Shown one piece after another: positions 39,456-49,626 of a stretch of DNA of 64,000 bases (its first letter is position 1; each line of letters opens with the position of its first letter). The notes beneath the pieces were generated by a model. It searched no databases, had not been told where the DNA came from, and saw nothing but the letters and a program-made list of their open reading frames with translations. Location: the NCBI RefSeq assembly GCF_003990975.1, contig NZ_RZJR01000012.1:62001-126000 (forward strand). Direction: 5' to 3'. This DNA is from Cohnella sp. AR92 (GTDB taxonomy: Bacteria; Bacillota; Bacilli; Paenibacillales; Paenibacillaceae). The position numbers and the translations under genes are program-made.

Positions 39456-40793
39456 TTACGAATTAATAAAAGCGGTATTCAGATGAGAGCGATAGACCAC
39501 TTGATATTGCAGCCCCGTCGCGATGGCGGCCAGCGGAACATACGTCTTGCTGACGCTCCCGACTTGCTGGGCATAGGCGGGAACCGCCAACGCTTTGGCG
39601 GCGCCGTTGACCTTCATCGTCTTCGAGCCCAGCGTGATGGAGACGGTATTGGCTCCCTTGACGAATGTAGCGGTCTTCGTCTTGTTGTCCCATTTGACTT
39701 GCGCGCCGGTTGCGTCGGCCACGTCGGTCAGAGCGAGGAACGTCGTGCTGCTGCGAAGCATCGGCTGATTTGGCGTTGTCAGCGCTTGGCCATTGATATA
39801 GATGGCCGGCGCAACCGGTTGTCCGTTCTTCAGCTTATCCTTGGCAGGAATGCGGGTGTACGATTGCCAGATGGCGTCCGAGAATTGCTCGGCAATGGCC
39901 GCATACCCCTGTTGATTCGGATGAACGTCCTTATCGTAGAAAATATGGGTCAGCGACATCTCCTTGCCGGCAAACAAAGAGCGGATAGGTACGACATCGA
40001 CGGCGATGCCCTCGTCGTCAAGCTCCTTCGCCAGTTGGTCCAATCGATCCGCCAAGTTGTCCGTCACCTTGATGAATTGGTCATAGAGCGCGGCGTCATA
40101 CTGAACGGGCATCGGCAGGTATTGATCGGTCAGCTTGATCGTCGCTTGAGGTGCCAATTCATGGATGAGCTGGATCGCTTTTTTAACCTGGTCTGTATAA
40201 TTATTCAGTTTGCCGTCAATTTCTGCATTCAATTTAACAGCGGCGTCCTTGGGGTCGAGGTCAAGAAGGCTGCGTATGTAATCGAGGAAGTCGTTGCCGC
40301 CAATCGTCATGGCTACCAGATTCGAATCGGCGAGCGCGCTGTTCAGAGCGACGGTCTTGGCCCCGATCTCGTCCGCGAGGCCGATGATTCGATCGTCCGG
40401 GAATTTGGTGAAATCCTGGATTTGGCTGTGCGTTAGCTTCTTCTTATCCTTGGCGCCTTGCAGCAGATTCGTCAGTCCCTCGGAAGTCAGTCCGACGACC
40501 GCATAGTTGCTGAGCTCGGCCGGTCCATGAAGCAGCGCCTGCTCGTAGAGGCGATCCCCGTATCCATAGATGTCTGACCAGTCCTTTACGCCGGGCTCGT
40601 AGCCGACGCTGACGGAGTCGCCTAGAACGACGATTCGATAGGGTGAAGAGACGGACGTTTGAGTCTGGGTAGTTGTGGATTGTACGGTTCCAGCCGCATT
40701 TGCGGCAGGGATCCCGGCAGCTCCAACGGCGAAGGAAGAGATGGCGATTGCGCCCGCGAGCGCAGTAACGGATAGGGCTTTCAGCTTTTTCAA
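39456..40793 (-). CDS. Secreted SGNH/GDSL hydrolase with C-terminal copper-amine-oxidase-N-like domain
   Basis: A 445-residue exported esterase-type enzyme. The signal peptide is KKLKALSVTALAGAIAISSF... GDSL block I is VVLGDSVSVGYEPG with the catalytic Ser, block III TIGGNDF gives the oxyanion Gly/Asn, and block V DVHPNQQGY gives Asp and His. Residues about 345-445 form a copper-amine-oxidase N-terminal-like (stalk) domain (YINGQALTTPNQPML, VKWDNKTKTATFVKG), widely used by Paenibacillaceae as a wall or carbohydrate attachment module. The start is TTG 40793, eight bases after GGGAGGA; ATGs further upstream lack such a site and would spoil the signal peptide. An O-deacetylase of a surface glycan is possible. 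Confidence 0.82.
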   Translation of the reverse strand: MKKLKALSVTALAGAIAISSFAVGAAGIPAANAAGTVQSTTTQTQTSVSSPYRIVVLGDSVSVGYEPGVKDWSDIYGYGDRLYEQALLHGPAELSNYAVVGLTSEGLTNLLQGAKDKKKLTHSQIQDFTKFPDDRIIGLADEIGAKTVALNSALADSNLVAMTIGGNDFLDYIRSLLDLDPKDAAVKLNAEIDGKLNNYTDQVKKAIQLIHELAPQATIKLTDQYLPMPVQYDAALYDQFIKVTDNLADRLDQLAKELDDEGIAVDVVPIRSLFAGKEMSLTHIFYDKDVHPNQQGYAAIAEQFSDAIWQSYTRIPAKDKLKNGQPVAPAIYINGQALTTPNQPMLRSSTTFLALTDVADATGAQVKWDNKTKTATFVKGANTVSITLGSKTMKVNGAAKALAVPAYAQQVGSVSKTYVPLAAIATGLQYQVVYRSHLNTAFINS

Positions 40794-41028
40794 AGAATGA
40801 TTCCTCCCAATCGTTTGTCGAAAGTTCATGAACAATACCGCTTATCGGCTGCATAAAAATATTAAATTGCCATTCTTGACAGGGTGATGTTAAAATAATA
40901 TAACTACAAAATGAATAATTATAAGAAATAACGGGTTGTACGGCGAAATCGAACGCGGACGACAACGAATACGCCGCGTATCTGCGCCCGCTAAGCCGTT
41001 ATGTTTATTATAATTGACACGGGTTATC

Positions 41029-45974: not shown

Positions 45975-46003
45975 TTGACAATCGCAAACAACAGAGCTAC
46001 AAT
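45975..46003 (+). promoter_or_regulatory. Consensus sigma-A promoter of the acyltransferase gene
   Basis: TTGACA (45975-45980), 17-bp spacer, TACAAT (45998-46003). Transcription should start near 46010, inside or just before the adjacent palindrome. Confidence 0.88.
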
Positions 46004-46014
46004 GACAAAAAAAG

Positions 46015-46033
46015 ATGATACAAAATGTATCAT
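46015..46033. promoter_or_regulatory. Palindrome at the start of the acyltransferase transcript, candidate operator
   Basis: ATGATACAAAATGTATCAT has perfect eight-base arms around AAA and begins 11 bases after the -10 box. A closely similar 19-mer stands at the same place after the gmd-operon promoter (48387-48405). Confidence 0.7.
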
Positions 46034-46052
46034 AATGTTTGGAGGCTACTAG

Positions 46053-47264
46053 ATGAGAAAACAGATTCCGAAAAGGTGGGTGATCGAGGGAAAGCTCTCT
46101 ATCGTGCTTGATCTCATCCGCTGGACTGCTGCTGCTATCGTCGTGTTGTCTCATATTAAAGGCTTGTATTTTGTCAGCTACTCGGAGATCGATAATCCTT
46201 CCTGGTATTTAAAGATTGTCTATGCGATATCGAGCTTAGGGCATCAGGCGGTAATGGTCTTCTTCGTCTTAAGCGGCATGTTGATCTCGGCCAATGTAAT
46301 GAAGGCAGTTGAGAAGGGGAGCTGGAGTTGGAGAACCTACCTGCTTCATCGTTTAACGCGTTTATACGTCGTGCTCGTTCCCGCTCTGCTTCTCGGCCTT
46401 CTGTGGGACTATGCGGGGAATTCCGCTTTCGGGGCAACGGGCATATATGATGGTTTGCCTGAGGATCAGTTTATCCTGAATTACTCAAGCGCAAGTTTGC
46501 TGACATCAAAGGAATTCATAGGTAATTTATTTTTTCTGCAAGGGGTATTTGTAAATCACTTCGGCTCGAACGGTCCTTTATGGAGCTTATCCTTTGAATT
46601 CTGGTACTATATTCTGTTCCCCTGCATGGTTCTCTCCATCAGTTCCAAAGCAAATAGCCTTAAGATTCTGTACACGCTAGTCGTGATAGCCTTAGCATTC
46701 ATGTTAGGAGAACATATATTGCTATATTACCTCGTCTGGCTGCTAGGATTCGTGCTTCATTTGCTTCCGTCATCTCTGACAAGAAAAGGGGTTGTCTTTG
46801 CCCTACTATGGCCATTACTCGCCATTGCCGCCTTAGGAGGAGCCCGGTTTTTCCCGCTTCCGCTTAATGATTACTTACAGGATCTCCTGCTCGCCCTCGC
46901 TTTCTCCGGCTTTTTATATGGCATTAAGCTAGCCTATTACCGGAAGCCACACGTTTCTCCTTGGCTCCGGAGAACCTCTTCCCTCCTCGCCGGCTATTCC
47001 TATTCCTTGTATCTTGCCCATTTTCCAGTTCTCGTGTTCCTGCATGCTTTGACTTACGACCGCGAGCCTAGGAAGTGGCAGCCGGACACCCAAACTCTAG
47101 CGTACGGAGCCTTCTTGTTTATCGTCATAAGCGTTTATGCATGGATGCTAGCCCAACTGACAGAGAAGCAGACAACGAAGGCCAGACGACTAATCGAGCG
47201 TCTGTTCCTTCGCATTCCGTCTTCACGGAAAGAAACCTATTCTTCCTTTAGCAGATCAAAATGA
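46053..47264 (+). CDS. Membrane acyltransferase (Acyltransferase_3/OafA-like)
   Basis: A 403-residue inner-membrane protein with about ten hydrophobic segments. The family His lies in IVVLSHIKG, the R in LLHRLTRLYVVL, and the WSLSFEFWYYILFP motif is the characteristic serine/glutamate block. Members O-acetylate exported polysaccharides or lipids. It is the first gene of the polysaccharide region, transcribed from its own consensus promoter with a palindrome at +1, and is AT-richer than the genes before it. GGAGG precedes ATG 46053. The likely substrate is the glycan made by the genes downstream. Confidence 0.87.
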   Translation: MRKQIPKRWVIEGKLSIVLDLIRWTAAAIVVLSHIKGLYFVSYSEIDNPSWYLKIVYAISSLGHQAVMVFFVLSGMLISANVMKAVEKGSWSWRTYLLHRLTRLYVVLVPALLLGLLWDYAGNSAFGATGIYDGLPEDQFILNYSSASLLTSKEFIGNLFFLQGVFVNHFGSNGPLWSLSFEFWYYILFPCMVLSISSKANSLKILYTLVVIALAFMLGEHILLYYLVWLLGFVLHLLPSSLTRKGVVFALLWPLLAIAALGGARFFPLPLNDYLQDLLLALAFSGFLYGIKLAYYRKPHVSPWLRRTSSLLAGYSYSLYLAHFPVLVFLHALTYDREPRKWQPDTQTLAYGAFLFIVISVYAWMLAQLTEKQTTKARRLIERLFLRIPSSRKETYSSFSRSK

Positions 47265-47280
47265 TAAGCGAGGTTATTCA

Positions 47281-48243
47281 ATGTTAATTTCCTTCCTTCA
47301 AGAACTTTATAAACCACAACCAGAATTAAACATGAACGAAGATGATTTCATTGGCATTCAGGCAGAGATCGACTTATTCGGCATATCGGCTCAGGTGTAC
47401 ATGCTCCTTAAGGAGGAGGGGGAAGCGTATAAGCATCTCCCTATAGCGTTCTGGCAGCACCTCGTGAGCGGGTTCACCAGTACGTTACAATTCAATCTCT
47501 ATATGAAGGTTCAAGAGGAAGCTATCTTTCGTGCCTTCGAACGCAATCGTATTCATAGTATGCCGCTCAAAGGTATTCAGTTCGCCTCCCGTTATTTCGG
47601 TCACTACGGAGCGAGATATACGTCCGATATTGATATTTATGTTCCCGAACCCGAGCTTAAGCGGGCTATCCGCTGCTTAGAGGAGGAGGGGTTCGAGTTC
47701 GAGGTTATCAAGGATCACCACGCGCGTCTGCATAAAGGGGATCTTACGGTCGAATTGCACATGACTTTTGATAAGCAATACTGGTCAAGGCTGGACCCAG
47801 CTCCGTTCTGGGAGGAATCGGAGCGATTTCAGGAATACCATTATATCCGGCAAATGTCCACGCAGCAGGCATTCTACTTTATCTGCTTGCACGGAGCTAG
47901 ACACCACATGGATAACATGAGGTTCATACTGGACATTGTTCAGATGCTGTACCGAAGCGGGGCGGAGATCGACTTTGAGGCTCTATTCAGGCAAGCTAAA
48001 CGGGATTTGACTTCGCGGAGAATCCGGACGGTTCTGACGATTGTTTATAGCCAATTTCCGCATCTTCAGGAGTGGAAGCCGCTTGATATGACATATATCG
48101 ACTCGGGCTGGAGATACGATACGATTCGCAGTGCGATTCTTGGGAGGAAAGGAGTCCCTTATTACCGGTATAAGCTGCATTTTAAACATTTAATATTCGA
48201 TTCGTGGAAATACGTCCTGCAATCTATCTCCAAGCCTTATTGA
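47281..48243 (+). CDS. Nucleotidyltransferase-fold protein of a polysaccharide locus
   Basis: A 320-residue cytosolic protein of the NTP_transf_5 (nucleotidyltransferase family) type. The key strand is ARYTSDIDIYVPEPEL, where the Asp pair would bind metal, preceded by SMPLKGIQFASRYF. Such genes are frequent in lasso-peptide, capsule and lipopolysaccharide clusters, but their reaction is not established. It lies 16 bp after the acyltransferase gene, surely on the same transcript, and shares its lower GC. No terminator follows before the next promoter. Confidence 0.75.
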   Translation: MLISFLQELYKPQPELNMNEDDFIGIQAEIDLFGISAQVYMLLKEEGEAYKHLPIAFWQHLVSGFTSTLQFNLYMKVQEEAIFRAFERNRIHSMPLKGIQFASRYFGHYGARYTSDIDIYVPEPELKRAIRCLEEEGFEFEVIKDHHARLHKGDLTVELHMTFDKQYWSRLDPAPFWEESERFQEYHYIRQMSTQQAFYFICLHGARHHMDNMRFILDIVQMLYRSGAEIDFEALFRQAKRDLTSRRIRTVLTIVYSQFPHLQEWKPLDMTYIDSGWRYDTIRSAILGRKGVPYYRYKLHFKHLIFDSWKYVLQSISKPY

Positions 48244-48347
48244 TTCCCCAATATGTCCATTAACAATCTATTCCTTCCAGGTAAACGCTTTATTCAGACA
48301 GATCTCTATTTATGGCGATTATAGGACGAAAGTTTCAAAAATAGGCA

Positions 48348-48376
48348 TTGACAAGTTACATACTGTATCTTATTAT
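48348..48376 (+). promoter_or_regulatory. Consensus sigma-A promoter of the gmd operon
   Basis: TTGACA (48348-48353), 17-bp spacer, TATTAT (48371-48376). The spacer itself contains TACTGTATCT, a half-site-like sequence of the adjacent operator. Confidence 0.87.
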
Positions 48377-48382
48377 GAAAAT

Positions 48383-49626
<1,244 letters not shown>

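Follow-up and report, generated by a model that had tools for sequence, protein, structure and literature searches.

Two neighbouring polysaccharide transcripts of Cohnella sp. AR92 are preceded by promoters that share a 19-bp element, raising the question of which regulator reads this element and what else it controls. The window analysed was a stretch of 64,000 nucleotides (C5:62001-126000 of the 6.02-Mb genome); sites in the rest of the genome were gathered by pattern searches and from sequence stretches. As originally predicted, the promoters of the acyltransferase gene and of gmd both had TTGACA and a 17-bp spacer, and the 19-bp elements began 11 and 10 bases after their -10 boxes (Table 1). 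The acyltransferase element was a perfect palindrome except for its odd centre and fell in the predicted initially transcribed region, with its start 40 bp beyond that of the -35 box. Elements whose palindrome begins at this distance (about 40 bp) are referred to as O2. In the other class, O1, the 19-bp palindrome comprised the 17-bp spacer and one base of each hexamer, TTGAC[ATGATACNNNNNGTATCAT]. Both were present at gmd (34 bp apart) and at the PilZ/EPS promoter (35 bp apart); the acyltransferase of the window had O2 only, and two LPP promoters had O1 only. The TACTGTATC sequence in the gmd spacer, earlier taken for a half-site, turned out to be one arm of a full, imperfect operator at 48353-48371 (AAGTTAC-ATACT-GTATCTT). 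In that operator the left arm reads GTTAC, a variant that recurs among relatives (22 of 54 spacer operators), and the half-site reading was rejected. A logo of 54 O1 sites from relatives revealed that G-W-TAC and GTATC were kept and that the loop bases were variable.

Table 1. Promoters, operators, genes and RNA element of the locus, and candidate regulator genes (window positions unless a contig or locus is named)
Feature	Position	Strand	Details
Acyltransferase operon promoter	45975..46003	+	-35 TTGACA 45975-45980; 17-bp spacer; -10 TACAAT 45998-46003; from sequence
Acyltransferase operator ATGATACAAAATGTATCAT	46015..46033		starts 11 bases past -10
Membrane acyltransferase	46053..47264	+	PF01757 Acyl_transf_3, E 1.1e-25
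Nucleotidyltransferase	47281..48243	+	PF14907 NTP_transf_5, E 9.1e-32
gmd promoter	48348..48376	+	-35 TTGACA 48348-48353; 17-bp spacer; -10 TATTAT 48371-48376; from sequence
gmd operator O1 AAGTTACATACTGTATCTT	48353..48371		fills -35/-10 spacer
gmd operator O2 ATGATACAATTCGTATCTA	48387..48405		starts 10 bases past -10; 34 bp downstream of O1
epsC/EAR RNA in gmd leader	48475..48584	+	RF01735, 88.7 bits (gathering score 42)
gmd, GDP-mannose 4,6-dehydratase	48634..49626	+	PF16363, E 5.7e-129
xreA, 139-aa XRE protein	C5:142175-142594	minus	PF01381, E 1.1e-17
xreB, XRE protein	C18:118.4 kb		PF01381, E 1.9e-16; operator in own promoter spacer
Third XRE type, genus g2	L107 1710-2027; L109 5992-6249; L392; L401; L403

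The acyltransferase putatively acylates EPS, and the nucleotidyltransferase gene, separated from it by a gap of 16 bp, is probably co-transcribed. Passages of PMC13381572 describe NTP transferases as typical RiPP-modification genes of LPP/paeninodin clusters, by which the nucleotidyltransferase of the window may serve RiPP modification. The gmd gene would be the first gene of the proposed regulated EPS operon. Within its leader, the Rfam RF01735 covariance model exceeded the gathering score; EAR RNAs are processive antitermination elements of eps operons (PMC2864571, PMC5540618). The sister EPS operon had a further EAR RNA at C5:145644. Besides these two on C5, three other epsC/EAR RNAs were found (C19:56230, C6:11349 and C3:32712), which suggests that the genome holds more long polysaccharide operons. 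Elsewhere in the window, an ORF judged by eye to be a secreted SGNH-type lipase/esterase-like gene lay on the minus strand at 39456-40835, upstream of a glutamate synthase gene.

The two-mismatch pattern gave 5 matches in the window compared with a mean of 0.51 in shuffles, and none of 100 shuffles reached 5; these matches were three places, because palindromic sites are counted on both strands. Genome-wide, the exact core GATACN5GTATC occurred 14 times, as against twice for the reversed control. Eight of the 14 exact cores were in one 67-kb EPS/RiPP stretch (C5 108-175 kb), about 1.1% of the genome. Cores on C5 preceded the acyltransferase gene, gmd, a small LPP-precursor gene, an LPP cluster, a second acyltransferase gene and the PilZ/cpsB/wzz EPS operon; a glycosyltransferase operon had two, one of them 177 bp upstream of the promoter copy. 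The exact core at C18:118285 filled the space between the promoter hexamers of xreB, which encodes an XRE protein. Four further exact cores, with loops that are G+C-rich or unlike the others, look like chance occurrences. Another exact core, at C33:107677, belonged to an operator (ATGATACGAAACGTATCAC, C33:107675-107693) that precedes a minus-strand gene and lies away from the EPS cluster. The pattern TTGACNNGATACN5GTATC (<=1 mismatch) was found in all 37 congeners, with one match in all for the reversed control. Occurrence at random genomic positions had been named beforehand as evidence against an operator; with 8 of 14 cores in 67 kb and 37 of 37 congeners positive, the positions were far from random. 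A chance origin was rejected on the shuffles, the reversed-pattern controls and the clustering in the genome.

No regulator gene lies near the two promoters within the window, from which an unlinked repressor had been proposed. This proved wrong past the window edge, where a linked XRE gene (xreA), encoding the expected recognition helix, belongs to the same EPS/RiPP cluster as gmd, 32 kb farther downstream. It is divergent from the PilZ/cpsB/wzz EPS operon and adjoins two more operator copies, arranged in tandem in the EPS promoter as at gmd. A 10-bp inverted repeat, TTTTGTTTCA-N12-TGAAACAAAA, was also observed between xreA and the EPS promoter (L016 18640-18671; C5:142639-142670); it does not resemble the Xre operator and may be where a different regulator acts on xreA. 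Positions 46017-46031 of the acyltransferase operator are the exact reverse complement of the 15-bp PBSX Xre consensus GATACATTTTGTATC, quoted in a passage of PMC4243335 that cites McDonnell and McConnell 1994. PBSX Xre of B. subtilis thus shares this core with Cohnella, and shares with both Cohnella candidates an XRE HTH and the S/T-R-x-x-x-S-H-Y-E recognition helix (SRAALSHYE in XreA, TRSAYSHYE in XreB and SRARYSHYE in PBSX-type Xre). Several operators near its own gene are likewise a feature of PBSX-type Xre (L121). In IMG/VR, 24 of 80 contig stretches with GATACATTTTGTATC had an SH[YFIL]E-helix XRE gene within 400 bp; for comparison, 8% of random positions had such a gene within 1 kb. However, PBSX Xre controls a prophage lysis switch, and the Cohnella sites precede chromosomal EPS and RiPP operons with two candidate repressors; the Cohnella operators also sit exactly in the 17-bp spacer plus about 35 bp downstream, and XreA, XreB and PBSX Xre do not resemble one another in their C-terminal parts. 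The best XRE matches were in C. fermenti (87%) and in C. lubricantis and C. thailandensis (85%). Among proteins of solved structure, those most closely related to XreA were repressors: phi106, ImmR and SinR.

An orthologue of the acyltransferase occurred in only one of the 37 congeners (G008, 72% identity), so that conservation of its operator rests on two genomes. In G008 its promoter retained TTGACA, the 17-bp spacer length and TACAAT, the spacer sequence had diverged, and the operator core was kept (GATACAATTTGTATC read along the gene). The gmd promoter of G008 kept O1 and O2; the element was therefore present before both orthologous genes in two genomes, where its absence had been named as telling against a shared operator. 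Across the family, the exact spacer operator was found in 63 of 120 genomes (control 0). None of the 38 genomes with a best XreB-protein match weaker than about 2e-14 had the operator, and the other 82 include all 63 carriers; the XRE cut-off (E about 2e-14) was picked after seeing the data, and these co-occurrence counts are confounded by shared ancestry. An operator was present within 600 bp upstream of 79 of 80 named xreA loci (63 exact), compared with 0 of 80 for the control pattern. The spacer-type operator was found at 54-55 of these loci and a second operator at 53, with a spacing mode of 35 bp (24 of 53). Since the 35-bp mode (3.3 turns) does not clearly place O1 and O2 on the same face, we claim neither helical phasing nor looping between them. 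Among 60 sampled exact sites of other genera, where genes were named from sequence motifs read by eye, the targets were xreB, another XRE gene, LPP precursors and lasso clusters, and further Wzz, CpsB, PilZ, epimerase or LytR genes; few sites were unexplained (e.g., L373, L409 and L410). A third XRE type (HLGN-IAELRE, SRSTLSHYEKNRR) was observed in genus g2, its own promoter carrying the same operators. In genus g7 (L098, L357, L359, L360, L363, L412 and L413), an operator-bearing promoter preceded a sulfotransferase-like gene; in L098 an asparagine-synthetase-like gene then follows, probably as part of a lasso cluster. Comparative genomics thus strongly supported the repressor that the original prediction had proposed for glycan synthesis and the acyltransferase together, with a regulon larger than two transcripts.

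On these sequence comparisons, the elements are very probably operators of a PBSX-Xre-type (XRE/Cro-CI) repressor, with XreA and XreB as candidates, through which EPS, acylation and LPP would be co-regulated. We infer binding by XreA/XreB, and repression rather than activation. XreA and/or XreB would repress the EPS, glycan-acylation and LPP/lasso RiPP operons together, a dimer on O1 covering the spacer between -35 and -10 and a dimer on O2 covering the first ~20 transcribed bases; occupancy of either should block RNA polymerase. Upon loss of repression by a presumed inducing signal, the operons for GDP-sugar/EPS synthesis, glycan acylation and phosphopeptide (LPP) would be switched on together, and the gmd transcript would then traverse the EAR RNA, keeping the polymerase processive.

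It is extremely improbable that the palindrome at 46015-46033 is a 5' mRNA hairpin for stability or translation control instead of a DNA operator. At the O2 position the palindrome is part of the transcript, and its sequence would allow an 8-bp stem closed by a 3-nt loop, but the same element lies in the untranscribed spacer of gmd, two LPP operons, the EPS operon, xreB and dozens of relatives' promoters, for which the hairpin was rejected. Further, the loop bases vary and the GATAC/GTATC arms are kept. An XRE protein acting mainly as an activator at some promoters, or with opposite effects from O1 and O2, is very unlikely as well: tandem operators at a preferred spacing and two XRE paralogues do resemble phage switches, but the good -35/-10 hexamers with 17-bp spacers need no activator, and a protein bound to O1 (overlapping both hexamers) or O2 (in the initial transcribed region) normally represses.

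A further alternative is that XreB, or another unlinked XRE protein, is the only true repressor and that XreA, at the EPS locus, is a bystander. In most genera it is XreB whose own promoter carries an operator, which matches the earlier reading of an unlinked repressor. However, genus g7 is without a close XreB (its best match, E about 1e-16, is the XreA match) and still keeps operators in the xreA-EPS intergenic region and before the lasso cluster, and 79 of 80 xreA genes have an upstream operator. A role for XreB or another unlinked protein alone is therefore unlikely, though not far-fetched, and XreA is retained beside XreB as a candidate. Literature searches found no XRE regulator of EPS or of LPP/paeninodin in Paenibacillus.

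Matrix regulation in Paenibacillaceae is discussed by analogy with SinR of B. subtilis, whose operator differs from that of Cohnella. Like SinR/SinI, which controls eps and tapA, the Cohnella system combines an XRE-family protein, presumably acting as a repressor, with an EPS operon and an EAR RNA (PMC5540618, PMC2864571), and a small protein, in Cohnella a putative ORF, is encoded next to the repressor. SinR-type control was rejected because the genome is without a SinI domain: PF08671 gave 0 matches in the Cohnella genome, with the B. subtilis positive control detected. A SinI-domain protein was found in only 5 of 37 congeners. The small ORF was noted outside the window as an unannotated 51-aa frame convergent with xreA (C5:141893-142048; L016 17894-18049) with the motif DIxxILxQLGIxxxxW. 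An ORF of 40-60 aa with the motif DIxxILxQ[LC]GIxxxxW was the best profile match at 77 of 80 xreA loci, a count that is partly circular since the profile was trained on 19 of the 80 loci and the Cohnella copy. It was mostly convergent with xreA, lying on the other side in six loci. It was detected in 75 of 120 genomes of the family, nearly always in single copy, and within 0.8 kb of an XRE match in 54 of the 66 genomes with a listed XRE match. Searches of Pfam, NCBIfam and PDB gave no relative of the ORF; no similarity to SinI, AimX or any solved chain was found, and in Pfam it showed no relation to SinI.

The XreA model (mean pLDDT 78, pTM 0.50) had among its nearest solved structures 9iaq, 9sf2 (with AimX) and SinR/SinI, which are repressors held by small antirepressors. 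The 9sf2 entry aligned with XreA over the C-terminal region, and SinR chains matched XreA at E 3e-6 and by fold at TMt 0.57-0.88. The phi106 repressor with AimX and the related arbitrium repressor are thus among the closest structures to the model (9iaq, 9sf2), and their entry titles name a small antirepressor; however, they serve a phage lysogeny decision, unlike the Cohnella system, and the ORF near xreA matches no solved chain. The conserved ORF of about 50 aa beside xreA is a candidate antirepressor, a lead and not a result. Tentatively, and short of being our favoured reading, a phage-type lysogeny switch, made up of XreA with its tandem operators and a small antirepressor of its own, might serve as the master matrix switch of Cohnella/Paenibacillus, replacing SinR/SinI. 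If true, a lysogeny-type switch would turn on EPS, linear phosphopeptides and lasso peptides at the same time, along with glycan acylation.

The RiPP genes under these operators resemble LPP/paeninodin-type clusters of capsule loci. The motif YxxPxVLxHQxIxFE of LPP precursors was present in MKTYEKPEVLVHQAVVFE (C5:165.3 kb) and MKKYDAPQIIVHQAVVFE (C5:141.5 kb); passages of PMC13381572 give YxxPxVLxHQ as the motif of linear polyphosphorylated peptides. The LPP cluster at C5:165.2-169.3 kb gave a PqqD (RRE) match (E 8.8e-18) and HprK-like ScmC and MsbA-like ABC matches below curated cut-offs; a putative SpI-like peptidase was judged by eye and had no family match. As in the capsule loci described in PMC13381572, Cohnella has LPP precursors and candidate lppK/B/S/D-like genes, which follow operator-bearing promoters. 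In P. alginolyticus, according to passages of the same paper (Popov et al. 2026, PMC13381572), lpp, lasso and EPS genes were synchronously up-regulated in stationary phase; the passages and a term search of that paper gave no named regulator or operator. The common operator is a candidate mechanism for this synchrony.

The regulon as read from sequence comprises EPS, LPP/lasso RiPPs and regulator genes; with its sites found at EPS and peptide gene promoters of 37 Cohnella and many Paenibacillus genomes, it points to a family-wide biofilm-matrix switch. The operator type was known; the target set and arrangement of what would be a family-wide XRE regulon are new. With the regulon defined, an operator named and two repressors proposed, EPS control becomes directly testable in Paenibacillus of biotechnology and agriculture; the regulon also links matrix production with RiPPs of unknown role.
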